NCBI RefSeq assembly: GCF_000614545.1
Contig: NZ_BAKW01000012.1
Span: forward strand, 1 to 64,000
Origin: Asaia platycodi JCM 25414
Lineage (GTDB): Bacteria; Pseudomonadota; Alphaproteobacteria; Acetobacterales; Acetobacteraceae
Direction of reading: 5' to 3'
DNA: 64,000 bases
The notes beneath the pieces were generated by a model. It was not told where the DNA came from. It did not search any database and saw only the letters and a list, made by a program, of their open reading frames with translations. The translations under genes and the position numbers were made by a program. Below, piece after piece: positions 11,381-64,000 of the stretch. Numbering within the stretch: the first letter of the stretch is position 1; each line of letters opens with the position of its first letter.

Positions 11381-13478
11381 CTATTCCGTCTGCGCCAGGG
11401 GCAGGTTCGGCACGCCCCGAAACCCGACGCGTGGCACCCAGAGCCGCGCGCCGCGCCAGGAGCGATCAGAGACCATTTCGAGGCCGTCTCCCTGCGTCCT
11501 GAGCAAGACGGCACCATCGCGCCATACCGTAAAGCGATCAATGAAACCGCCGGGATGACAGTCTTCGGGCAGGGGAACAGCGCTGACGACAAAGACACTC
11601 TTGTGACAAGCCGAAATACGGCTTTCAGGAGAGGGCGGCGCGAACCAGATCGTGACGGACTGACCACCCAGCAAAAGCGTGCATCCGGTCGATATGCAGG
11701 CTGGGCTCCCGGAACTCGCCATGACAGGCAGTGGCCAGGCACGCTGCCATGCCTCGAGAACGCGGGTTTCGAGCCCGTTATGCGGCCCGGCCACCCAGTG
11801 GTGATTTTCCTGAAAAGCAATCACGCCGGCATCGGGCGACACCAGCAGAACCGGGCTCTCGCCAAAAACCGGCGATGCCACACCGAGCAGGATGAGAGGC
11901 AGAAATACGAAACGCGCCTTTCCCCTCCAAAGGCAGAGCCCCGCCAACCCGGCCATGTAGAGGATCAGCCCTTCCCAGCCCATATGCGGGACAGGCACAT
12001 GCGCCATCGGGAAAGCGGCGACACGCTCGGCCAAGAACGAGATCAGACCGATCCCCTGCCCCATCACCCAGAGCGGCGCTCCCGACAGACCGAACGGCAT
12101 GAGCAGCAGCGCGCACAGCCCCGCAGGCATGACGCAGAATGCGGCAATCGGCACCGCCAGAAGATTGGCCAGAATAAACCAGGCTGGAAACTGCCGAAAC
12201 CCGCCATGACCAGAGGCAGGGTCGCCCCGCCTGCCAGCGCACTGGTGAGAGAGAGCAGGACGAAATAGTGCCCGACCCCGTTCTTCTTTCCCTGTTCGGC
12301 ACGCCTGACGAAATACGGACGCAGCGCCTCATACCCCGCAATCAGCGCCATGACGGCAGCAAACGACATCTGGAAAGAGAGATCCAGCACCAGAACGGGA
12401 GACGTCATGAGCAGTATGAGCGCCACCAGCGCAAGAGAACGCATCGACAGCACGCGCCGCCCGCTCAGGAGGGCCAGTGTCGCAAGCCCCGCCATGCCCA
12501 GACTACGCAAGGCGGGCAGGTGAAACCCGGTGAGGGCGACATAGACCAAGCCTGCGATCAATGCCGCCAATGCAGCAATCTCACGGCAGGGCAGGCGCAG
12601 CCCCAGCCAGGGCCAGAGCACCAGTGCCTGTCTGGTCATGACGAAGATCGCCCCCATGACCAGACCCAGATGCAGCCCGGCAACGGCAAGAATATGGGCG
12701 AGACCGGATGCTGCATAAGCCGCTCGGCTCTGCTGGCTGATCCCTTCGCCATGACCCGCCAGCAGGGTCGAGGCAATGGCGGCGCGCTGACCCGAGAGAT
12801 GGCGCGCGATCTCCGCCGCAATCCGCACGCGCCAACGCCCGAGTGCATGGCCCTGCGGCGGCTGCACTATGTCAGGCACACCGAGCACGCGCCCCGTTCC
12901 GGCCAGGCCATCGAACCAGGCTTCTCTCTGACGGTCGCGCCCACCGGGAAAATCAGGCCAGTCAGGCGGCCTCAGCACGGCACGCAGCCGCACCATCATG
13001 CCCGGTGCGTAGTTCTTTTCGTCATGGGTAAAGAGCAGCAAATCGCGTCGCAGCGGCGCCATGCCGATATCGACCCCGGTTTCGAACACTGCTTGATGGA
13101 TACGCAGGCGCTGAAGCATTTGCCCTGCCTCACCACTGCGCGACACATCACTGATGACTCCGCGCATGGTGACCGACAGCGAGGGCAAGGCAGGCATGGG
13201 AGCTGACGCCAAGCCTGACCGCGTGCCGCCAGAAACCCCAGACTTACCAATAGCACCGCAAAACCCAGTGCGCGTGTCGTCAGACGCCGCCAGCCAATTG
13301 ACAGCAGCACCAGCCCCAGAGCGGCGCAAGCACTCGCCCATTCATAGCCAGGTTCGTAACGGGGGAGGAAATAAAACAGGCTCCCCATGGCCCAGGCGAT
13401 GGGGAGCCACGCGGTCAAAGCGCGGCCCTGGGCGAGGAGGCGGAACTCAAGACTGGCGGCGATACGGGCGGGAGTCAC
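11381..13478 (-). CDS. comEC: ComEC/Rec2 DNA-uptake channel (frameshifted twice)
   Basis: Three consecutive frames join near 13207 and 12180; one added base at each restores about 699 residues. The N-terminal soluble DUF4131-like region (about residues 1-200) precedes the Competence membrane domain, recognisable from GHGEGISQQSRAAYAASGLA and HILAVAGLHLGLV and a long series of membrane helices. ComEC forms the inner-membrane channel for single-stranded DNA during transformation. No metallo-beta-lactamase domain is visible at the C-terminus, as in many alphaproteobacterial versions. The start is a GTG at 13478. Together with dprA (19.1 kb) it means two competence genes lie within 8 kb. Confidence 0.85.
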
Positions 13479-52705: not shown

Positions 52706-53398
52706 TTGAGCGCGCCTTCGTCTTCACGCCGACGCTTCGTCAAGAATGCGGCAGGCACCACCGCCTTCCTTCTTCTCGCCGGTCATGACTTCGCCGCCCG
52801 CGCTGCGGCTGCGGCCAGGCTCGACGACAAACCAGTTTTTTTCACGCCTGACGAAATGCGCTTTCTGAATGCGGCCTGCGATTGCATCTTCCCGCACGAC
52901 GATCTTGGTCCAGGCGCCTCTGCTCTTGGCGTCCCCACCTTCATCGACCGGCAGATGAACACGCCCTATGGCCGGGGTGAGCTCTGGTACATGGCAGGCC
53001 CGTTTCAGGATGGCCCCGCCAATCTTGGCTACCAGCTCCCGTTTGCACCGCAAGATCTGTATCGCAAGGGAATTGCAGGGGCCAATCACTACGCCCGCAC
53101 CGAACGCGGCAAGGATTTTGCCGATCTCCACGTTGAAGAGCAGATCGAAATCCTGACGGCTTTCGAAGGTGGCGCCGTTCATTTTCAAGAGCTCAATGCG
53201 CGACTTTTCTTCGAGCAATTGCGCCGCAACACGCTCGAAGGCGCTTTTTCCGATCCGATCCATGGGGGCAATCGCAACATGGAAGGCTGGATTCTGCTCG
53301 CCTTTCCCGGTGCGCGCGCCGATTTCATGGATTGGGTCAATCAGGAAGGCGCAGCCTATCCTTTCGGCCCCGTATCGATCAGCGGCCAGAAGGCCTGA
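52706..53398 (+). CDS. Dehydrogenase small subunit (gluconate 2-dehydrogenase subunit 3 family)
   Basis: The start is a TTG at 52706, chosen because AGGAG lies six bases upstream and it puts the twin-arginine signal (SSSRRRFVKNAAG) at the N-terminus of a 230-residue protein. The body matches gluconate 2-dehydrogenase subunit 3: FFTPDEMRFLNAACDCIFPHDD, FIDRQMNTPYGRGELWY and GFxDPxHGGNRNMEGW-like FSDPIHGGNRNMEGW. This subunit carries the folded flavoprotein across the membrane through Tat and stabilises it. It leads a small-large-cytochrome operon. Confidence 0.88.
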   Translation: MSAPSSSRRRFVKNAAGTTAFLLLAGHDFAARAAAAARLDDKPVFFTPDEMRFLNAACDCIFPHDDLGPGASALGVPTFIDRQMNTPYGRGELWYMAGPFQDGPANLGYQLPFAPQDLYRKGIAGANHYARTERGKDFADLHVEEQIEILTAFEGGAVHFQELNARLFFEQLRRNTLEGAFSDPIHGGNRNMEGWILLAFPGARADFMDWVNQEGAAYPFGPVSISGQKA

Positions 53399-53424
53399 GC
53401 GTCAATCATTCGAGTTCCAAACGC

Positions 53425-55202
53425 ATGACATCAAAACGGACTGACGTAGTCATTATTGGCGCAGGCTGGGCAGGCGCCATTCTTGCCAAGGAAATGCGTG
53501 AGGCAGGACGTAGTGTCGTCATGCTCGAGCGCGGCCCGGAACGCTCAACGGCAACAGAAGGCACCTATCCCGGATCGATCGATGAATTGCGCGGGGCTAT
53601 CAGACACAGATTATTCCAGAACCCCGCAAAGACCACAGTCACGATCCGCAACACGGTCAACCAGACAGCGCTCCCTTATCGTCAGCTCGCGGCTTTTCTG
53701 CCAGGTGAAGGCGTCGGCGGCGCCGGGCTTCACTGGTCGGGCGTGCATTTTCGCGCAGCCCCCGATGATCTGCGTCTCCGCAGCCATGTCATCGACCGCT
53801 ATGGCGCAAAATTCATTCCCGAAGGGATGAATTTGCAGGATTACGGCGTGACTTATGAGGAGCTGGAACCTTTTTTCGACAAAGCCGAAAAGGTGTTCGG
53901 CACGTCGGGAGAAGCCTACAAGATCAACGGCCAGATCGTCGGCAATGGCAATGTGTTCTCGCCATCGCGCAGCGATAAATTCCCTCTTCCTGCCATGCAG
54001 GACGTCTATACAGCGAGCCTGTTCCGCAAGGCGGCGTCAGATGCCGGGTATCATCCTATGCGCTGCCCGCAGCCAATGCTTCGATGCAATACACCAACAC
54101 ATACGGCCTGCAGATGGGACCGTGCAATTTTTGCGGTTATTGCAGCGGCTATGATTGCTACATGTATTCGAAGGCCTCGCCAAATATCAATATTCTTCCG
54201 GCGCTGCGCGACGACAATGATTTCACGCTGATCACCGATGCCCATGTTCTGAAGGTCAATCTCGACAGCGACCGACGCAAGGCGACCGGCGTCACCTATC
54301 TCGACCAGCGCGAAAATCGGGAAAAGACCATCGAAGCTGATCTGGTCATTTTGGCTGCGTTCCAGTTTCACAACGTGCATCTGATGCTCCTCTCGGGCAT
54401 CGGCAAGCCCTATGACCCGATCAGCAATACCGGTGTCGTCGGGCGCAACTTCGTCTATCAGACCATCACCACCTCACGTGCCTGGCTTTCGGGAAACCAG
54501 TTTACCAACCAGTTCGTGGGCGCTGGTGGCGCAGGCGTCGCTCTTGACGATTTCAACAGCGATAATTTTGATCATGGCCCGCTCGGCTTCGTGGGCGGCT
54601 CACCGATCTGGGTCAACCAGGCCGGTGTCAAACCCATTGCCGCAGCCATGAATGGCGGTGGCAAATCGGCGCCGCGCTGGGGCGCTGGCTACAAGGCGGG
54701 TCTGGTCGATACCTATCGTCATTCACTCGCCATGGATGCACATGGCAGCAACATGGCCTATCGCGACGTCTATCTCGATCTCGATCCGACCTGGCGTGAC
54801 AGCTACGGACAACCCTTGCTGCGCATGACCTTCACCTGGAAGGAAAACGACATCCGCATGAACCAGTATGTCGTTGGCAAGATCGAGCCGATCATGAAGG
54901 CACTTGACGCCAGGCGCTACGAACTCGGCAGGCTCGAACACGGTGAAGCCTTCGATACACGCCGCTACCAGACGACCCATCTCGGCGGCGGCGCCGTCAT
55001 GGGCACGAGCCCGACCGACAGCGCCCTCAACCGCTATCTACAGAGCTGGGATGTCTCGAACGTGTTCGTCATCGGTTCGAACGCCTTTCCGCAGGGCATG
55101 GGCTATAATCCCACCGGCACGGTCGCGGCCTTGGCCTATTGGGCGGCGCATCATATCCGCACCACCTATCTGGCCCAGCCCGGCCCGCTGGTGGCGTTGT
55201 GA
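53425..55202 (+). CDS. FAD-dependent dehydrogenase large subunit, GMC family (frameshifted once)
   Basis: The restored protein of about 592 residues has the FAD Rossmann motif IIGAGWAGAILAKEM, the GMC signature PGEGVGGAGLHWSG, and the C-terminal THLGGGAVMGTSP and NAFPQGMGYNPTGTVAAL active-site region. CNFCGYCSGYDC near residue 222 matches the cysteine cluster that binds [3Fe-4S] in fructose and gluconate dehydrogenases. The break near 54058 (CATCCTATGCG) needs one base. It would oxidise a sugar, sugar acid or keto-acid in the periplasm; gluconate, 2-ketogluconate and fructose are all possible. It has no signal of its own and relies on the small subunit. Confidence 0.87.
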
Positions 55203-56527
55203 TGCGCGCGCGAAAAGCCGGCTTCGCGCTGCTCGCCATTGTCGGTCTCGCCGCCTCGGCGCAAACGAGGGCGCAGGAAAAACCGCAACAAGCGCTTATC
55301 GATAAAGGGCGCTATCTGGCAGCAGCAGCCGATTGCTCTGCCTGTCATACTCATGATGCCGCCGCGCCTTATGGCGGCGGCAATCCGTTCGGCCTGCCCA
55401 TCGGAACGCTCTACGCCCCCAATATCACACCAGACAAACAGCATGGCATCGGCAACTATACAGAAGCCGATTTTTCCAATGCGCTTCGCCGCGGTGTCGG
55501 CAGAAATGGCAAGCCGCTTTATCCGGCCATGCCCTTCCCTTCCTATGCGCGCATGACCGATGCCGACATCCATGCGCTCTGGGTCTATTTCCATGAGGGT
55601 GTCACGCCGATCGCCAGATCGGCGCCTGCCAATGCCATACACTGGCCGCTCTCGATGCGTTGGCCCATGACCTTCTGGCGCTGGGCTTTCGCCCCGACGC
55701 CAAAAGCAGCCCTGAACAACGCCAATCGGAGTTTTCCTTCCAACGATATCGCCCGTGGTGCCTATCTGGTCGAAGGGCCGGGCCATTGCGGCGCCTGCCA
55801 CACGCCACGAGCCCTGACGATGCAGGAAAAAGCGCTTTCCAGCGACGAGGGCGACGTGTTTCTTTCTGGCGGTGCTGCCGTCGATGGCTGGACACCCGTC
55901 AATCTGAGACAGGATGACCGCACAGGCCTCGGCAGATGGAGCGAAGACGATATCGTCGCCTTTCTTGCAACCGGGCGGAGCGAAAAAGGCTCGGCCTTCG
56001 GCGGCATGAGCGATGCCATCGCCCACGGCACACAACATCTCAGCACAGCCGATCTGCATGCCATCGCGCGCTACCTAAAAACGTCTCTCCCGGCCCGGAA
56101 GAACGAAAAAGCCTGGCAAGCCGATCACACCGTCGCAGATGCCCTGCGCGAGGGGCAGCTTCCCGCAGCCGGTGCCAAAACCTATATCGACCGATGCGCA
56201 GCCTGCCATCGAACGGATGGACGCGGCTATGCCCCGGCCTTTCCGCCTCTGGCTGGCAACCCGACCCTCATGGACAAGGACCCTGGTTCTTTGATCCTGA
56301 TCGTTCTGCGCGGTGCAACGGTAGCCCCGACAGAAAAGGCCCCCTCCGCCCTGACCATGCCCGGCTTCGGACATGTGCTCAACGACCAGGAAGTCGCCGA
56401 TGTCGTGACGTTCATACGCCAGAGCTGGGGCAATTCCGGCAGTGTTGTCACCGCAGCCGATGTGCACAGCTTCCGCGATCGTAATGCGGAGTGGATCAAC
56501 ACCCCGCCTCCCAAACCCTTTAACTAA
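55202..56527 (+). CDS. Tri-haem cytochrome c subunit of membrane dehydrogenase
   Basis: The 441-residue protein starts on the last base of the large-subunit stop. A signal peptide (ALLAIVGLAASAQTRA) precedes three cytochrome c domains, each with its haem site: CSACH, CGACH and CAACH. The C-terminal part (ADVVTFIRQSWGNSG) is typical of the alcohol, gluconate and sorbitol dehydrogenase cytochromes of acetic acid bacteria. It takes electrons from the FAD/Fe-S subunit and reduces ubiquinone at the membrane. It converges on the phage module with a 20-base gap. Confidence 0.92.
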   Translation: MRARKAGFALLAIVGLAASAQTRAQEKPQQALIDKGRYLAAAADCSACHTHDAAAPYGGGNPFGLPIGTLYAPNITPDKQHGIGNYTEADFSNALRRGVGRNGKPLYPAMPFPSYARMTDADIHALWVYFHEGVTPIARSAPANAIHWPLSMRWPMTFWRWAFAPTPKAALNNANRSFPSNDIARGAYLVEGPGHCGACHTPRALTMQEKALSSDEGDVFLSGGAAVDGWTPVNLRQDDRTGLGRWSEDDIVAFLATGRSEKGSAFGGMSDAIAHGTQHLSTADLHAIARYLKTSLPARKNEKAWQADHTVADALREGQLPAAGAKTYIDRCAACHRTDGRGYAPAFPPLAGNPTLMDKDPGSLILIVLRGATVAPTEKAPSALTMPGFGHVLNDQEVADVVTFIRQSWGNSGSVVTAADVHSFRDRNAEWINTPPPKPFN

Positions 56528-56547: not shown

Positions 56548-57804
56548 TCAGTGGAGGAAGCGATAAATCACCAGCCCGGGATAGCCGCGACCTCCCGCTG
56601 CTGTCTGTCCGGCCACGCGGGTGGAATACGCTCCTCCCCCTCCTGCGCCATGACGCGTGGCATTGGCGCCCAAAAGATACCCGGCCTTTCCACCACCACC
56701 CCAGGGACCATTGGCGCCATTACCGGCAAACACGACACTGCCGTTCTGACCGTCGCTTCCGGCACCGCCGGTCTGATTCCAGAGAGTGCCTCCCCCCGTA
56801 CCACCGCCATCGCCGCCTATCGCCATTTGAGACGTCGCAAAATACCCCGAACCACCCCCATCCGAGGTGAGAAAGGGTGTTCCGTTATAGGTTACGAAGC
56901 TCGGTCCCCCACGCTGACCAGCGCCGCCGCCTGGGCCGACCGTGACCGAAAGCGACGCATTTTTGGCGGGATCGACCGCATAGACACCCCAGCAATCGCC
57001 ACCGGCCCCGCCACCGCCGCCTGAAAAAGACCCGGCCTCGGGCGTCAGGGCGTTACTCGAAGCCCCACCGCCACCACCTCCGATAACCCGCAATTCAACC
57101 TGACGAGCCCAGCCTGGTATTGTCAGAATCTGACTGGCGACACAGAGCGCCTGAGGCTGACTGATCTGCTGCGCAAAACTCATTGTCGCCAAATCGGGGA
57201 GAGCGGGTAGAAAAACGGTGCTTTTTTGCGGAACGACGGCGCCAAGCGTCGCTGCACCGGCAGGGACGCTCATCAGATAGAGCGGCACGATAATGGCCCC
57301 CGCAGCCGAAGGCGCGCTTGCCCCTGCCACGAAGCTGATACGCCCCGTGCGACGGGTAGGCAGCGCCTTGCCCCGATTATCCGGCCCCGCCATGGTCTGG
57401 TCCGGCTTTTCTGCATTGTAAAATGGCAGCACGTCCAGTGTATCGTCCTGCACGCGACAGACCGCGTAGAGGGTGATATCGACGCCCGTCAGGGGAATGG
57501 CTAGGGTCTGGGCCGCGTCGTTATAGAACAGGGCCTGCGTTACGGAAAAATCGGCGTCGAGCCCCGCCGAAACACCTCCGATACGCGCGGCATCGAGCGC
57601 ATCCGGTGCCATGATTGCCCCTCGTCCGATCGTGACAGACAGATCACTGTCACACGTCTGACAGGCAAGACCCGAGGCCATGATCGTCTGGCTACCCACC
57701 AGCATTTCAGCAAAACGCCCCAGCCCCTCTTTCGCATAGCGGCCGAGACGCAGCAGATCCGTGTCGAACGGGACTGCCCCCGCATAAATGATCGGACGAT
57801 CCAT
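56548..57804 (-). CDS. Glycine-rich phage tail fibre-like protein
   Basis: The 418-residue protein begins DRPIIYAGAVPFDTDLLRLGRYAKEG, a start seen in phage tail-fibre and collar-type proteins. The C-terminal 170 residues are very rich in Gly (GGGGGGASSN, GGGGGAGG), a composition common in the adhesive tips of fibres and adhesins. It is the last gene of the tail module and overlaps the I-like gene (TGATGG). It would recognise the host surface. The glycine block is coding and not a DNA repeat array. Confidence 0.7.
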   Translation of the reverse strand: MDRPIIYAGAVPFDTDLLRLGRYAKEGLGRFAEMLVGSQTIMASGLACQTCDSDLSVTIGRGAIMAPDALDAARIGGVSAGLDADFSVTQALFYNDAAQTLAIPLTGVDITLYAVCRVQDDTLDVLPFYNAEKPDQTMAGPDNRGKALPTRRTGRISFVAGASAPSAAGAIIVPLYLMSVPAGAATLGAVVPQKSTVFLPALPDLATMSFAQQISQPQALCVASQILTIPGWARQVELRVIGGGGGGASSNALTPEAGSFSGGGGGAGGDCWGVYAVDPAKNASLSVTVGPGGGAGQRGGPSFVTYNGTPFLTSDGGGSGYFATSQMAIGGDGGGTGGGTLWNQTGGAGSDGQNGSVVFAGNGANGPWGGGGKAGYLLGANATRHGAGGGGAYSTRVAGQTAAGGRGYPGLVIYRFLH

Positions 57805-58463
57805 CACGCCTGCATCCTTATCCATGCGATCACACCCGATGCCTTCGTGGCCCTGATCGCCGCATGCAGGGCACGCTGTTCGACCGGCAGCTTCGGGTAG
57901 ACCTCCAGAAAAAACTGCCCTCCCGGGCGGGCGCCATAACGGCTGCGCGACGCGCCGTAACCGCCAGCATAGCGCCAGGCACCGCAATCACGCACGGTTC
58001 CGGGTTCGATGATCCGTGGTGCGGCTCCAGAAAGGCGGCGCACCGCCTCGGATACGGCGTGACGCGTATTGAGCGGCGCCACCAGTGAGCTCACCATGCG
58101 CCTGCGAAAATGCGTGTCTCTCTCTAGCTTGAGCCGGATCATGCCTGAAGGCCCGAAGAAATCGACTGCCGCCATCTCCAGAAAGACAGCATCTGTCGTA
58201 CCTAAGCGCGTCTGCCTGCGCACAAAATTCATTAGGGTCCAGATCGACGCCAGTATGGACCCGAACCCTGTAAGCAATGCCTGTAGAACCGGCGCATCTT
58301 CCGCCTCGTCTCCACGATAGGCCGGAAACCAGCCGAAAGGCAGAATGAGGCGCAGGCGTCTGGCAAAGTCCCGCGCAGTACCCGGCGCAATGCCGGTATC
58401 GTAAAGTATCTTGCGATCCGTCGCCTGCAGGCTCGATACATCGCGATCTCTCAGAATGGCCAT
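57804..58463 (-). CDS. Phage tail protein, P2 gpI-like
   Basis: A 219-residue protein located after J where P2-like phages have I. Features are an N-terminal LRLILPFGWFP, a helical SILASIWTLMNFVRRQTR and a C-terminal LHAAIRATKASGVIAWI, resembling the gpI/DUF2313 baseplate wedge proteins that link the baseplate to fibres. Sequence recognition is weak, so the assignment rests on position and general pattern. It overlaps both neighbours by single start/stop codons. Confidence 0.6.
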   Translation of the reverse strand: MAILRDRDVSSLQATDRKILYDTGIAPGTARDFARRLRLILPFGWFPAYRGDEAEDAPVLQALLTGFGSILASIWTLMNFVRRQTRLGTTDAVFLEMAAVDFFGPSGMIRLKLERDTHFRRRMVSSLVAPLNTRHAVSEAVRRLSGAAPRIIEPGTVRDCGAWRYAGGYGASRSRYGARPGGQFFLEVYPKLPVEQRALHAAIRATKASGVIAWIRMQA

Positions 58464-59696
58464 CAGCCACCAACCTGTTCAGCCGTGAAAAGCGGCACGC
58501 GATAATCCTTACCATTCACATTGAGATGCAGGAAACCGCCTTCCGCCTCTTGCGGTAAGGCGCCTCCGGGGCTTGCCACGGGTGAGGACATCTGGATTTC
58601 TCCCCCCTCTGCAGGTAGAGGCCGAGATTGGGTGAGCCATTTTCACCCTTCTGCACGTAGAGGCCAGCCGCAGCGAGCCCGCTCCCGGCCTGAATGTTCA
58701 GCGTGTTGGTCGGCGCCGTGTTGGGTGAGATGGAGAACAGCAGATTACTGGTCATGTTCGTGACCAGAAGCCCGTCATCGGCAAATTGTATGCGCTGTCC
58801 CTTGGCCGTCTGCGAAACGGTCGAAAAAAGCATGGCTCCCGCATCGAGGCCCTGAACGTGCTCCCTCGTTTCAGGTGTTCGCCATTCTATACCCTGACTT
58901 CGCGCCATCGAAATCGCCGTCGCATAGCCGCTATCATCACCATTCGTCCCTGCCAGCGCCGTATTGCCGAACAGAATACCGGTTTTCCATGAGTCAGGAT
59001 TACTGACGAAGACGATCCCCGCCTCGCAATCTGCCGTTCCCTCAGTCTGTCCGCCTCCGGCGCCGATCTGGATGGCATAGGTGCCGCCACCGCAATTCGG
59101 GTGATAGGGCGTCGACATGCCGTAAGCAGGGCCACCCAGATTGACCGCCTCCAGCTCCATGACGAAACTGGCTGATAATTGACCCCGGGCATGCGCCAGG
59201 CCTCGCCGTAATAGGCATAGGCCGTGGCTTGGGTCGGATTGGTCGTGTCGTCTGCAACGCCCCATGACGCAATACCGATCGTGCTCGGCACATGGCCCAG
59301 CTTGTCACGCCATTTTATTGCATCCGATGTGCGCGATCCGGCCACGAAGGCACTGTTACCGAAACGCGAAAGCGACGCAGCCTGGGCATTTTCGAGCGCC
59401 CAGGGACCGATCGAGGTGGTCGCCATGAGAGACGACAACCAGTCCTGACGCTCCACATCGCGCGTGTTGAGAGCCGGATAATCCGACGCCGCACCGATGA
59501 AGAAACGATCCCCGTAACGGCTGACTTTCGCTCCTTCTTCCGCAAAGAATTCGCCGCTGGGCGGAGAATCGGCGGGCGCTCCGGCAATCTGGCTCGCCGT
59601 CGCATTGAGGGTCTCGACACCGTCCGGCGTCGCGATGACGAGAACTTCCGATCCTGCAACAGAAGGAATAGGAAAGTAATTATTGAATTTCGGCAT
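58463..59696 (-). CDS. Tail fibre/appendage-like phage protein (frameshifted twice)
   Basis: The ATG at 59696 begins PKFNNYFPIPSVAGSE; the frame breaks near 59188 (CCCGGGG) and 58605 (a run of six G), each one base short, and ends at the stop overlapping the I-like gene. The restored protein of about 411 residues has a Gly/Ser/Thr-rich, beta-strand pattern (NLGGPAYGMSTPYH, LYVQKGENGSPNLGLYLQ) like fibre or head-decoration proteins. Its place between J and I is not that of a usual P2 fibre gene. No family is assigned with confidence. Confidence 0.55.
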
Positions 59697-60836
59697 TACC
59701 CCTCCTGAACGATCTGAACGGAGATCGTGCCTGGAAAAAGCGACTGGCTGGTTTGTGCGGGGATATCGTTCTGAGTGCCATTGAGCAGAATATCTGTCAC
59801 CGACAGCACCGACACGCCGGCACCGACATAAGCGACATAGGAAAGACGACTGAACGGATAACTCGCCCCGATCTGCGCCGCAGCGATATCGGCGCAAAGC
59901 TCTGACGAGTGTTGTCCGGGCCCCTTCCGCATCGGCGCCCGAAGCAATCCGCACCGCCATCGAAACGTTTACCGTCAGCATCACAGGACGCTGCACAGCA
60001 AATCCGACGCCCAGAGCCTTCGTCGCCTCGACACTGGCGTAGACTTTCTGAAGCACCTGCTCGGGCACGTCGTCACTGCCATCGTCTATAACGACCGTGA
60101 AATAACCTGCGCTGGTTGCCCCATCGGATTCCTGACCGTCAAAAACGGCATAGCTCAGATTGTTCTGGGTCTCGGCAACGGCGCTCTCGACTGCCGCGCG
60201 AGAAGCGCTCGCCTTGGAAGCCAGCCAGAGCGGAAAACGCCTGCGCAGCTGCGCATCGGTCTCCTGGTCTGAGCCATTCGCAAAAGCCTTGAGATTAGTG
60301 ACGATATCGATGCCTGCAACCGAGGTGCCCATCAGGGAAATCGCGCCTATGGCAACATTTCCCTGAACACCCTCCACCAGCGCCTCTACGGGCAATGTCA
60401 GCGATGCCACCCCTGGGGGCCGTACATACCCCACCGTCTCGGCCGACCAGCGCTCATGGGTCGTATCGATTACGACCTCATAGGTAATGGCTGAAGCGGT
60501 ACGAACGGTCACACCGGGGCGCACCACGGCGGAGATATCGTCGTAGGAAAAACAGGTCATGGTGACCGAGCCAAGCGCCTTGACGCCCGGCAGTCTGGTC
60601 ATGCCGAAATCGCCGACGAAACTGTCGCAATCGGCGCCCACTGATGTGGCCAGTCTTGTGCGGCAAAGGATCTGCAGCTGCATATATTGCAGCCACAAAC
60701 CGAGGGCGGCGACGCTTTCCAACAAAGCCCGCCCTGGCGTACCGATATCGAGGGTGAGCTTCTGGGCACACTGCGCCTGCGCCGTGACGACAGCATTCTG
60801 GACGAGTGACGAAAAGGAACGCAAAGAAAACGACAT
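59696..60836 (-). CDS. Baseplate J-like protein (frameshifted once)
   Basis: This is the wedge protein of contractile tails. The N-terminal membrane-free helical part (LLESVAALGLWLQYMQLQI) and the core FANGSDQETDAQLRRRFPLWL with GYFTVVIDDGSDDVP are those of P2 gpJ / Mu gp47. Near 59905 the frame shifts in the sense of one extra base or two missing, leading to the family ending (YPFSRLSYVAYVGAGV). The restored length is about 380 residues. The stop overlaps the next start. Confidence 0.82.
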
Positions 60837-60875
60837 GAGCTTTCCGATGCCTCGTCGGCAGGAGCCGAGCCAGGC

Positions 60876-61250
60876 TCAGATCGTGCCGCTCTGATTGAAT
60901 GTGAATATCTGCCCGGCTTCTTCGCCTTGCTCGGTATAGGCAATCGCGCAGCGATAGGTGCTCACAGCCAGAGGCGTCAGTGTCACTGTTACCGGTTGAT
61001 CGTGGTCTATCGACGCCTCCAGAGCGAGTTGACTGACAATCAGCCCCTGCGTCTCCTCCTCCCGGATGGGTGTCCCGACGCGTGCAGGCAGACCGGCACC
61101 ATACTCGCCATGCCAGAGATAGGCTTTCGGATTGGTGCAAAGACGCCGAAGGATATTTTGCCGTGTTGCCAATGTCCCATCGACAGGGCGCAGAGCGCCC
61201 TCCTCGTCGAGCTGAAGATCCTCACCGAAATAATGATACAGATCCGTCAT
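60876..61250 (-). CDS. Baseplate W / gp25-like protein
   Basis: A 124-residue protein of the GPW/gp25 baseplate family, starting TDLYHYFGEDLQLDEEGAL and containing RQNILRRLCTNPKAYLWH and GEYGAGLP, in the expected place between V and J. In T4 the homologue gp25 starts sheath polymerisation. The start overlaps V by four bases. Confidence 0.72.
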   Translation of the reverse strand: MTDLYHYFGEDLQLDEEGALRPVDGTLATRQNILRRLCTNPKAYLWHGEYGAGLPARVGTPIREEETQGLIVSQLALEASIDHDQPVTVTLTPLAVSTYRCAIAYTEQGEEAGQIFTFNQSGTI

Positions 61251-61897
61251 CCCACAGCCTTTCCAGTCATGCCGTTGGGATAGGGATGCACGTGGTCACC
61301 CAGGCTGTTCAGGTCGGTCCGCACATCGCCGCCCGAGACGGAAATGCCGCCCCCCTTCACCTCGATACCAGCACCGGAAACAGACAATCCCCCAGAGTCG
61401 AGTGTCATCCTGACAGACCCTGCCCTGAGCACGATCGCCGATCCGCTGAGCGCACAACGTATTTCGCCAGCACCAAAGAACACGCCATCCCGGCCCAGAT
61501 GCAGCCACCCGGCCTGTTCGCTCTTGCTGCTCGATTTTCCCGAGGGTGCACCGCATCCGGCCCGAACCAGCAATTCGCCAGGCTGTGCAACCTTCCCTGT
61601 CTGCGGCGACAAGGCGGGTCCGGCAACGACATCGAACATGACGGAAATAATAACGTAATTCTCGCCGTCGCCTTCCACAGGCATCAGTAATACATGCGCG
61701 CCCGGCGCACTAGGACAGGAAAGACGCAGATCGCCCACCTGCGTAACCGCCGCATCCGGCAACCACCCTGTCTCGATATTGTCAGGCTGCAAGCGCACCT
61801 TGACGGCATGATTGGCAGGATCAACCGCTGAAACGATCCCATGTATGGCGTGGGCCGTGCGCGTCTGATGGGCCGCAGCCCAAAAAGAACCATCCAT
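61247..61897 (-). CDS. Baseplate assembly protein V (spike)
   Basis: The 216-residue protein has an OB-like N-terminal domain (GIVSAVDPANHAVKVRL, ETGWLP, VLLMPVEGD) and a C-terminal beta-helix-like repeat (GLSVSGAGIEVKGGGISVS), ending DHVHPYPNG. This is the P2 gpV layout, the membrane-piercing spike. The His-rich end may bind a metal as in P2 gpV. Confidence 0.8.
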   Translation of the reverse strand: MDGSFWAAAHQTRTAHAIHGIVSAVDPANHAVKVRLQPDNIETGWLPDAAVTQVGDLRLSCPSAPGAHVLLMPVEGDGENYVIISVMFDVVAGPALSPQTGKVAQPGELLVRAGCGAPSGKSSSKSEQAGWLHLGRDGVFFGAGEIRCALSGSAIVLRAGSVRMTLDSGGLSVSGAGIEVKGGGISVSGGDVRTDLNSLGDHVHPYPNGMTGKAVG

Positions 61898-61909
61898 GGG
61901 CCTGTTTCC

Positions 61910-62974
61910 TCAAAAAACGCGATCCCGCAGCGTCACATCCTGCCGATAACCATGAGCGGGATCGAAAGAATGCGTGACAGAGTCGACGGATAATGTCTTG
62001 GCCTCGTCAAAAAGCCCTTCATCAAGAGTCATGAAATGACGCGGTGCCAGCCCCGTCACGGCAGGCAGAGAAAGACGAGCTTCGACCGCATGAGAGACAA
62101 TCCGTCGATATTTTCCTTTTGCCAGGCGCCTGATTTCGTCCATGCGCTGGCCCGGCGCCCTGAAAGTATAGAGCGCAGCATTGGCATCCGGCATCTGGCT
62201 CGAAAAATTTTGACCGTCGAAAAAAACCTCGCTCCGGGCCCTTTGTCGAGAATCCCAAGATTGCACACCGACAACGACATTTCGCGCGAGACCGAGATCG
62301 TGCCTGAAAGCCTGAACGCTGACACCGACGGGAGAAAAAAGTCGTGTGCCCCCCTCACCGACAGCGTAGGGCGCATGAATATGAATTGTCTTGCCAGCCG
62401 CATGACACTCATATCCGTGATCGCGGGAGAGGGAGAAAGCAATATCGAAAGCGGTCTGGTACCGATGCTGCGTAATGGCAGAAAGCCGCCTGTGTTCCAG
62501 TTGCCAGAACTGCCCGCAATACGTCGCAGCTTCGGTATCAGCAGAACCAATATCCGTCTGAAAATCCAGTCCTGCGTGCTGAACCGCGTTCTGCACGACT
62601 TCGAGCGCAGTATGATTGCTCCAGGAAGAGGCGAGGCGCGTATCGAGCAGAAAGGCCATATAATCACGGCACTCCAGCACGAAGAGCGACTTGCCGCTTC
62701 CCTTGCTGAGCGCATCGAGCACACCGTGAAAAACAGTCGTCCACTCATTGCTGCCCTGCGCAACCTGTAACCTCACATCCGGTCGTTCGAAGCCTGAACG
62801 GTCTGCGACAACACTACGCAGAACAGCCTTGTCTTCGACAATCACTCTGATGAGTGCTGTGTCGCAACGCTCATAGCGCGTGCATTCCAGACGAAACCCC
62901 CCGACATGCAGGCTTTCCTGCGCAGCGCCGTCGATCAGAAGCCGGGTTTTCCAGTTGCGCATCAACCCTGTCAT
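61910..62974 (-). CDS. Late control gene D-like tail protein
   Basis: The ATG at 62974 gives 354 residues of the phage late control D / gp27-hub family: an early RLLIDGAA, FHGVLDALSKG, LECRDYMAFLLD and a C-terminal DSVTHSFDPAHGYRQDVTL. It forms the hub that holds the spike V. The start overlaps the restored stop of the X-like gene (ATGA). Confidence 0.8.
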   Translation of the reverse strand: MTGLMRNWKTRLLIDGAAQESLHVGGFRLECTRYERCDTALIRVIVEDKAVLRSVVADRSGFERPDVRLQVAQGSNEWTTVFHGVLDALSKGSGKSLFVLECRDYMAFLLDTRLASSWSNHTALEVVQNAVQHAGLDFQTDIGSADTEAATYCGQFWQLEHRRLSAITQHRYQTAFDIAFSLSRDHGYECHAAGKTIHIHAPYAVGEGGTRLFSPVGVSVQAFRHDLGLARNVVVGVQSWDSRQRARSEVFFDGQNFSSQMPDANAALYTFRAPGQRMDEIRRLAKGKYRRIVSHAVEARLSLPAVTGLAPRHFMTLDEGLFDEAKTLSVDSVTHSFDPAHGYRQDVTLRDRVF

Positions 62975-63176
62975 GAGGCGGCAACCCTTCGCCCTCATAA
63001 GCAACGCTCTCGTCAGGCAGAACGATCTGCACCGGCACGTCAAAGCCGGTGAGGTCAGGGTCGCTCAACCCATTTTCCTCGGCGAGACGCCACCACTGCA
63101 TGGCGTCGTTGAAGTAGCGCATGGCCAGATGAAAGAGCGACACATCGTCTGACGTTACCTGTATCTTCATTCTCAT
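62971..63176 (-). CDS. Tail protein X-like (LysM type, frameshifted at the end)
   Basis: A 68-residue protein. VSLFHLAMRYFNDAMQWWRLAEENG and DVPVQIVLPDES follow the P2 gpX pattern, with a LysM-like fold that binds peptidoglycan. As read, the frame continues into D. One added base near 62978 makes it end PPS just before the D start with a typical four-base overlap. Confidence 0.65.
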
Positions 63177-63241
63177 TCCCCTCGAAACCGTTCAGCCTGA
63201 CACCGCGCCATGCCTGGAACGGCACGTCACAACGCATCACG

Positions 63242-64000
63242 TCACGCGCCAATCAGGGTCTGCGCGCGACTGACATAACTTCCGGCATCGACACTCAGGG
63301 TCGTTGCACCGGCATTTTGCGAAAGAAGAACCAGGTCGGCCGCATTCGTGACCTGCGCCTTGTCCAGAGCCAGGCCGGATTCGTTTCGAGCCTGTACCAG
63401 ACTACTTCCCGCAAGAGAGAGATCCGATCCGACCGCAGCGACGGCCGTGGGTATACGTGTCACATTGGTGGCGCTCTGCCAGAGAGAACTGGCCTTTCCC
63501 AGCGCATCCCGGGCGCGTGCGATCGCGCCGCCTGCGCCCAGAACCTGCGCCACTGGCATGATCTGACCCATGACAGACGAAATCATGTTCGTACCGATCC
63601 ACCCGGAGTCGGTCATCTGTCCGAGCACGGTCGACAAAACGCCCAGACCAGAAATCATATCCAGACTGGCCGTCTCCAACGAACCCAGCGCCAGAACAGA
63701 GGGGCTGACTTCGCGTTCCAGAACCAGACGATAGGGACAGATCGTCCCGCGCGCCTGATAAGACCAGGAAAATTCGGCAATCCAGACCCGTGCGGACAGA
63801 TCGGCGACTGAAAAGGCCAGAACCTGCGCGGCCTCGCGCATCGCCTCCAGACGACGCGCCCTGCTCGTCGCCATCGGCCCAATGAAACGCCCGGTCAGCA
63901 CCAACCGCGCCGGGTCGTTGCCGATGGCGTCGATCACGCGCCCGCCTCCGAGAAGGCGATGGATAATCAGGATCTGACGACCCCCGATAACCAGCTCGTC
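63242..64000 (-). CDS. Tail protein U-like (partial)
   Basis: Open to the end of the window; at least 252 residues. The N-terminal part (VLTGRFIGPMATSRARRLEAM, VWIAEFSWSYQARG, PYRLVLE) follows the gpU pattern of a beta-strand, a helix rich in Arg and a late basic strand. The long C-terminal half of small Ala/Ser/Gly-rich helices is extra. P2-like modules place U before X and D, as here. The start lies outside the window. Confidence 0.55.
   Translation of the reverse strand, partial: DELVIGGRQILIIHRLLGGGRVIDAIGNDPARLVLTGRFIGPMATSRARRLEAMREAAQVLAFSVADLSARVWIAEFSWSYQARGTICPYRLVLEREVSPSVLALGSLETASLDMISGLGVLSTVLGQMTDSGWIGTNMISSVMGQIMPVAQVLGAGGAIARARDALGKASSLWQSATNVTRIPTAVAAVGSDLSLAGSSLVQARNESGLALDKAQVTNAADLVLLSQNAGATTLSVDAGSYVSRAQTLIGA

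Follow-up and report, generated by a model that had tools for sequence, protein, structure and literature searches.

Vertical inheritance and probable domestication of a contractile-tailed phage cassette in acetic-acid bacteria: a candidate gene transfer agent

The question raised by this locus is what a compact set of phage tail genes is doing 20 bases from a metabolic operon in Asaia platycodi JCM 25414. The stretch analyzed here (the window) is the first 64 kb (64,000 bases) of the 101,576-base contig NZ_BAKW01000012.1 (assembly GCF_000614545.1), and its tail genes, at 56,548-64,000, are all on the minus strand. The initial annotation had described a P2-like tail module with an extra gene between J and I and proposed that it could be the end of a prophage or a tailocin. 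We find that the tail genes are part of something larger, a cassette of head and contractile-tail genes in acetic-acid bacteria whose domestication and vertical inheritance appear highly probable. On balance, and with somewhat more confidence than doubt, we read it as an ancient domesticated, vertically inherited myophage cassette that would still make DNA-packaging particles, most likely as an element resembling a gene transfer agent (GTA) with a contractile tail.

The cassette comprises ~20 kb and 23 genes (p1 to p23) and extends past the window edge, reaching about 76 kb of the contig. Beyond p15 the same strand carries, in turn, a tape-measure-like gene, a chaperone-like gene, tube, sheath and three genes of unknown function, followed by the genes for the major capsid protein (MCP), scaffold, portal, TerL and TerS and by two small genes; the tape measure, tube and chaperone were assigned by position. 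Past the small genes lie a divergent gene for a helix-turn-helix Xre repressor and then an AcrB-HlyD-OEP efflux operon. Judged by gene content and phage homologs, a caudovirus-type head-tail set (terminase, portal, scaffold, MCP, sheath and baseplate) is present, the portal being a divergent, frame-split member of the SPP1-type portal family, for which a search of this genome itself returned 0 matches. The earlier statement that only tail genes are visible is true of the window and reflects its edge, since tube, sheath, capsid, scaffold, portal, TerL and TerS come next on the contig. Reading on for head and integrase genes, as had been advised, yielded the head genes and neither integrase, lysis gene nor att-like repeat, so that of the pair named as the mark of an ordinary prophage one half is present. 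Scans of the cassette with PHROGs and Pfam found no integrase or replication genes, no att-like direct repeat of more than 10 bases bordered it in the three genomes tested, and ARAGORN found no tRNA genes in the window; the initial annotation had likewise seen no integrase, attachment site or tRNA at the 56.5 kb border.

Selection on the cassette was read mainly from one close pair of genomes, G149-G259, in which dS is mostly unsaturated; other pairs often gave a dS above 1 or undefined and are indicative only. In the close pair, dN/dS was low both for head genes (TerL 0.038, portal 0.088, MCP 0.050) and for tail genes (sheath 0.077, tube 0, J 0.046, p21 0.064, I 0.063, fibre 0.093), and higher for p10 (0.26) and the tape measure (0.82). 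The flanking host genes were tighter still (0.006-0.03). In the ten cassettes outside Asaia/Swaminathania, MCP identity was 77-83%. A tree of eight concatenated cassette proteins from 17 genomes had 8 of its 14 splits in common with the GyrA tree, a number that none of 20,000 relabelings reached (maximum 5); the discordant splits involved G022, the deepest nodes and the relationships within Asaia. These values and trees show, at the level of genes, a cassette under purifying selection that co-diverges with its host, and we regard domestication and vertical descent as very probable. The vertical descent, together with the finding of no genes for self-propagation, argues that it is the host that keeps the cassette, and the constraint on packaging and capsid genes argues that the heads would be filled with DNA.

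The chromosomal position points the same way. TerL was present in 9/9 Asaia genomes, the other eight copies being 81-92% identical to that of A. platycodi, with Asaia siamensis as the nearest named relative at 92%. In all nine Asaia genomes and in Swaminathania, one and the same efflux operon borders the cassette on one side and one and the same cytochrome c/dehydrogenase operon on the other. Tanticharoenia (G048) and two further genera (G022, G025) have retained this pair of flanks too, which shows one chromosomal site, with both flanks, common to five genera. The left flank alone was found in two Neokomagataea, Acidomonas and Brytella, and a left flank also in Gluconobacter wancherniae; the right flank alone was found in G218 and G250, both of the Gluconobacter genus (here the GTDB genus that contains Gluconobacter and Neokomagataea). 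The cytochrome c gene adjoins the cassette in the same orientation in the 9 Asaia, Swaminathania, Tanticharoenia, G022, G025, G218 and G250. Within the Gluconobacter genus, p21 was detected in 26/26 genomes, in 25 of them as a near full-length single match. The laboratory strain G. oxydans NBRC 14819 (L124) is one carrier of the cassette. Across the family, TerL gave matches in 41 of 299 genomes, the weakest of them only distant, and a probe consisting of the first 60 residues of p21 matched in 29/397 genomes and 9/102 genera. In a class-wide sample, p21 was found in 1 of 385 genomes, namely this one.

Several cassette genes are split in this assembly: J (near 59.9 kb) lies in two frames, p21 in three, and portal, sheath and others are also broken. 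The window sequence was used uncorrected. In 17/17 better assemblies, J (379-383 aa) and p21 (410-414 aa) are single frames, and 16 of the 23 cassette genes are of near-constant length. The other seven are p1, p2 and p10, which vary in length, p6, whose start was wrongly set by our script, p14, which had no tblastn match outside Asaia, and p15 and p16, which are short in G025/G009 and G250. Host genes are affected as well. Compared with the A. siamensis copy, 18 of the 49 host open reading frames (ORFs) of the window with a usable match needed at least two frames; this count started from 51 ORFs (o15 to o65), from which o56 and o57 were dropped for want of a usable match, and it may include some spurious overlapping frames and one ORF (o35) that also has a second copy nearby. 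The host dehydrogenase, for example, is split near 54.1 kb into two frames here versus a 623-aa single frame in A. siamensis. The genome completeness score is 85.9%. Three broken assemblies (G000, G286, G299) were omitted from the intactness count and from the trees; gyrA is fragmented in G286 and G299 and whole in G000. Since host ORFs are also split and the genes of relatives are whole, the breaks are general to the assembly and most likely sequencing or assembly errors. We therefore reject a decaying prophage as their explanation, given the 18/49 split host ORFs and the fragmented gyrA of two assemblies, and because such breaks are frequent across this assembly, any claim of a broken gene in the window needs relatives as a check.

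The Xre gene (about 131 aa) has a core that is 86-99% identical in 40 distinct loci. Pairs of the palindrome TGGC-N5-GCCA lie upstream of the xre start in 38/40 loci and beyond its 3' end in 37/40, and in 39/40 one 3'-side copy sits between TTGAC and TTAA, aimed at the cassette through xre. The background of the palindrome in downstream sequence was 15 in 684,139 bp. Genome-wide, the paired operator occurred solely at this switch in 5/5 Asaia/Swaminathania genomes searched, other genera had zero to two extra pairs, and a backwards control pattern occurred 0 times in 12 genomes. We infer that the cassette Xre binds these operators. Far from the cassette, a conserved transporter-like gene (POT-type by inspection) has a cluster of four or five TGGC-N5-GCCA copies at its start in G079, G054 and G218 (L331:6555-6756, L332:5909-6073, L333:3705-3886); peptide uptake may thus be a further target of Xre or of a different regulator that recognizes this motif.

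Next to the switch lies p1, whose predicted structure (pLDDT 77) had a viral protein as its best match in a fold search (E 1e-7). The fold also resembled one DUF6456 viral protein (E 5e-3, probability 1.00) and, at E 0.23, another. A fold search of the PDB gave a best E of 0.42, and a p1 profile run against the sequences of solved structures gave one uninformative match (E 0.012). The name DUF6456 occurs for homologs, or in the annotation, of GafA, the activator of RcGTA (PMC9638019, PMC9765227). As a lead, p1 may be distantly fold-related to GafZ/GafA-like activators. Between xre and p1 we observed a small frame of about 86 aa (L038 about 11,943-12,203 in A. siamensis) that holds an Asaia-conserved stretch, ERDESGALPAGHPVTW in the A. 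siamensis copy; the cassette may actually begin with this gene rather than with p1.

The extra gene, p21 (about 58466..59696, minus strand, about 411 aa), is there as the initial annotation had claimed, flanked by PHROG-matched genes for J and I. In phiKX1, a phage of Komagataeibacter compared below, J and I overlap (PhiKX1_780 overlaps the end of J) with no gene between them, so that, compared with this closest phage described, p21 is an inserted gene. The A. siamensis copy of p21 had no Pfam, PHROG or NCBIfam match, p21 bears no resemblance to the glycine-rich fibre, and its AlphaFold model (pLDDT 33) was unusable. Residues 99-410 match a segment of the tail spike of Stappia phage SI01 (28%, E 1e-6), and because of this match p21 is most likely a receptor-binding spike. 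The p21 proteins of 17 other cassettes were 51-93% identical to the A. siamensis copy, and many glycines were invariant among them.

Taken together, these features suggest how the cassette would work. Xre would silence it by way of the four TGGC-N5-GCCA operators that surround xre. Once Xre no longer represses, the promoter that has an operator as its -35/-10 spacer, running antisense through xre, would help turn the cassette on, and p1, perhaps GafZ/GafA-like, would act as late activator. TerS and TerL would then load heads with DNA, in all likelihood that of the host. The contractile tail of the particle would be short, and its baseplate would bear the fibre p23 and the added spike p21 as a pair of receptor-binding proteins. 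Few tail proteins are as well conserved as p21, and the particle would therefore most likely target kin and would act in the manner of a GTA rather than as a competitor-killing tailocin; release would need a lysis function encoded elsewhere. We put GTA-like function at about even chances or slightly below. Tentatively, and at a little less than even chances, the cassette is an independently exapted contractile-tailed GTA lineage, in which a phiKX-like myophage was captured once, in an ancestor shared at the least by Asaia, Gluconobacter, Tanticharoenia and their relatives, and was stripped to head and tail with a shorter tape measure, an added conserved spike (p21) and a dedicated Xre four-operator switch.

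There are three other explanations for such a cassette. The serious rival, which we judge unlikely, is a PBSX-like domesticated phage, which would package host DNA without delivering it and whose use would lie in the killing of rival strains or in DNA release. The combination of contractile tail, head and Xre-type repressor recalls PBSX of Bacillus, and the TerS retains a helix-turn-helix. Tailocin-type fibres usually vary between strains. Here, in contrast, the receptor-binding genes are undiversified: between G149 and G259, the one pair to which these values apply, p21 and p23 are each 98% identical (dN/dS 0.06 and 0.09), and p21 is more conserved than D, W and I in 10/10 cassettes outside Asaia/Swaminathania. 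Also in favor of a PBSX-like element, mitomycin-induced contractile particles have been described from cassette-bearing genera, namely from three Gluconobacter strains (with G. cerinus and G. frateurii among the sources), Acidomonas and Ameyamaea, with tails (Table 1 of that paper) of 72-95 nm in Gluconobacter, 75 nm in Acidomonas and 15 nm in Ameyamaea; the six phages sequenced there came from Acetobacter and Komagataeibacter only (PMC8566455). The putative tape measure of phiKX1 has 742 aa, whereas the longest frame at the corresponding gap has 254-383 aa in 17/20 cassettes; the other three have 238 and 240 aa (poor assemblies) and 470 aa (Swaminathania, where the frame begins inside the preceding gene). 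Particles from the phiKX1 host have a tail of 98.9 nm (PMC8566455), and scaling a 346-aa putative tape measure on this length would give a cassette tail of about 46 nm. The reported tail lengths fit this estimate poorly, so the induced particles may stem from other prophages.

An ordinary or decaying prophage, whose site-specific integration has been caught repeatedly at one place, is improbable. It would account for the 17 genes homologous to the temperate phiKX1, for related head modules in other, longer viral contigs and genomes (with p21 relatives in some), and for IMG/VR contigs of 19-22 kb that resemble the cassette itself. Against it stand the failure to find an integrase or replication gene or, in three genomes, a border repeat longer than 10 bases, the occurrence in every genome searched of two genera rather than sporadically (TerL in Asaia, p21 in the Gluconobacter genus), the congruence of the cassette and GyrA trees, and genes of near-constant length that are not decayed. 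The proposed end of a prophage was therefore right insofar as head genes directly follow on the contig, whereas an ordinary prophage misfits an element conserved mostly at one site in several genera. The tailocin, a tail-only weapon with head genes as idle leftovers, was suggested by a window that alone shows tail genes only and is the least probable of the three; we reject it, as TerS, TerL, portal, scaffold and MCP are present, intact in relatives and as constrained as the tail (dN/dS in G149-G259 of 0.05 for MCP, 0.04 for TerL and 0.09 for portal against 0.05 for J and 0.06 for I), with MCP identity as given above.

A number of observations weigh against a GTA-like cassette of the kind we favor. 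(i) The cassette is known here from its genes, and particles, packaged DNA and transfer would be predictions from them. (ii) PHROGs and Pfam scans found no lysis gene in the cassette. (iii) The TerS N-terminus matches HTH_28 (E 4e-5; 23.9 bits versus a cut-off of 25), and the helix-turn-helix region is kept, by eye, across 15 aligned TerS; GTA TerS is usually without a detectable DNA-binding domain (PMC11841831), so the cassette TerS, in keeping its helix-turn-helix, deviates from the usual type. (iv) Structural proteins of type I GTAs are usually biased to energetically cheaper amino acids (PMC9662315). This signature was not seen here, carbon per residue being slightly higher than in prophage homologs for 4/4 proteins; carbon per residue is a proxy for amino-acid cost, and the samples were small with G+C uncontrolled. 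(v) The cassette of Ameyamaea (G009; L218/L219) is the one copy found with neither flank, no xre was detected there, and it forms the longest branch of the tree; this copy has possibly been relocated or rewired. (vi) GTTC-N7-GTTC, which we take to be an SOS-like motif, occurs in 15/40 loci and, as a control, close upstream of recA in 1/5 genomes only; SOS control of the cassette is a possibility. (vii) The link of p1 to DUF6456 is not significant at the level of sequence (hhalign probability 3.6%; matches to 2 of 18 members, with E values no better than 0.027). (viii) Relatives of p21 occur on a few longer IMG/VR contigs of 30-48 kb, and one genome of the Gluconobacter genus has a second p21 copy; these may be real phages, and p21 alone is therefore no proof of a cassette.

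The remaining genes of the window's tail module, all on the minus strand, are described here from the window edge inward. p15, a U/N-like tail protein, occupies 63242..64000 and runs on to contig position 64,111 (phrog_36820, E 2e-42; 40% identity to PhiKX1_720). p16 (62871..63176; about 69 aa in relatives) is an X-like small tail protein that matches phrog_28233 and is 59% identical to PhiKX1_730; the label X is assigned mainly by its position. The D-like baseplate hub p17 (61910..62974, 354 aa) matches phrog_52 (tail protein), and its A. siamensis copy has a weak Pfam Phage_GPD match (E 0.03, below cut-off). It is followed by the V-like baseplate spike p18 (61247..61897; phrog_6142, baseplate assembly; 43% to the phiKX1 'baseplate injector') and the W-like baseplate protein p19 (60876..61250, 124 aa; phrog_975, E 5e-5), for which a phiKX1 homolog exists. 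Baseplate J is p20 (about 59695..60836; 380 aa in relatives), with matches to phrog_6 (baseplate wedge, E 9e-32) and, for the A. siamensis copy, to Pfam Baseplate_J (E 6e-21). Past p21 come the I-like baseplate protein p22 (57804..58463, 219 aa), which matches phrog_26379 (unknown function) and is 36% identical to PhiKX1_780, and the last cassette gene, p23 (56548..57804, 418 aa), a glycine-rich tail fibre with matches to phrog_863 and phrog_6202 (tail fibre). The A. siamensis copy of p23 matches Pfam Gly_rich_2 (E 7e-14), and the N-terminal half of p23 is 33% identical to PhiKX1_790. As initially noted, 20 bases separate the module from a metabolic operon, counted from the end of p23 to the cytochrome c gene (55139..56527, plus strand), the right-hand host boundary, which was named by inspection of its sequence and its CxxCH motifs. 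The flanking operon, conserved as the right flank, includes a dehydrogenase large subunit of the GMC/gluconate-2-dehydrogenase type (53332..55202, plus strand; family by sequence inspection).

Two kinds of related elements were also seen. Several Asaia genomes carry elsewhere a second TerL, 63-65% similar, with related head, sheath and tube genes (G149:C1 about 1,711,600, L055/L056, TerL 63%; L036; L094; L118) and no match to the distal tail module. This second copy is probably a separate, real prophage type whose head module shares ancestry with the cassette. In addition, IMG/VR holds "viral contigs" of 19-22 kb that resemble the cassette (behind L126-L140 and L282-L308), which would be the domesticated element catalogued as a virus.

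Known GTAs are few. The three GTA groups with established genetics include none from acetic-acid bacteria (PMC9662315). In the parts of the GTA literature available we found no description of a contractile-tailed GTA, and searches of open-access literature aimed at this cassette listed no description of it (most subscription journals lie outside that scope). If transfer is true, Gluconobacter, which is food-associated and culturable, would have a built-in route of gene exchange that could account for allele flow and DNA repair and could serve as a tool. Even without transfer, a head-tail set that all sampled genomes of Asaia and Gluconobacter have kept should repay its cost.

Among known systems, the closest described phages are phiKX1 and phiKX2 (LC644975/LC644976; 53 kb, Komagataeibacter, temperate). 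In a comparison covering 45 of the 53 kb of phiKX1 (the first 8 kb of the record were left out), 17/23 cassette genes had homologs in the same order, with identities of 63% for MCP, 53% for sheath, 51% for portal and 43% for J, whereas the cassette TerS, TerL, p1, p2, tape measure and p21 had no match in those 45 kb. phiKX1 itself has 53 kb, 91 ORFs and an integrase (PMC8566455). The supposed P2-like character of the module holds for gene types (D, V, W, J, I, sheath and tube) and not for their order: the cassette has sheath, tube, U/N, X and D ahead of V-W-J, as phiKX1 does. P2 has the order V-W-J-I-H-G-FI-FII-E-T-U-D, and sheath, tube ... U/N, X, D, V, W, J, I, fibre is the order of Mu. A P2-like order was thus rejected in favor of that of phiKX1.

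PBSX of Bacillus subtilis has a contractile tail, a head thought to be filled with host DNA and an Xre-type repressor, and it is fixed in its hosts. The cassette shares the contractile tail, the Xre-type repressor and the fixation, and filling with host DNA is hypothetical here. PBSX carries lysis genes, whereas none was found in the cassette by the scans described, and the receptor-binding genes of the cassette are conserved.

With the alphaproteobacterial type I GTAs (RcGTA/CcGTA) the cassette has in common a compact, domesticated, integrase-less and vertically inherited head-tail cluster; it differs in its contractile sheath and in a TerS that retains its helix-turn-helix. DUF2460, which we take as a structural marker of the RcGTA type, was absent from 11/11 cassette genomes, with a positive Caulobacter control, and a relative of RcGTA was rejected on this ground. 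The Caulobacter GTA is controlled by the helix-turn-helix repressor RogA and the activators GafY/GafZ (PMC9632790, PMC11150451). RogA has an S24-like domain, whereas the cassette repressor has only HTH_3 in Pfam. The attributes of GTAs include caudovirus-derived genes, no genes for self-mobility and vertical inheritance, and further the carriage of random host DNA, a particle too small for its own genes and delivery to cells (PMC9662315). At the level of genes, the cassette agrees with GTAs in that no self-mobility genes were found, in its caudovirus-type genes and in its co-diversification with the host.

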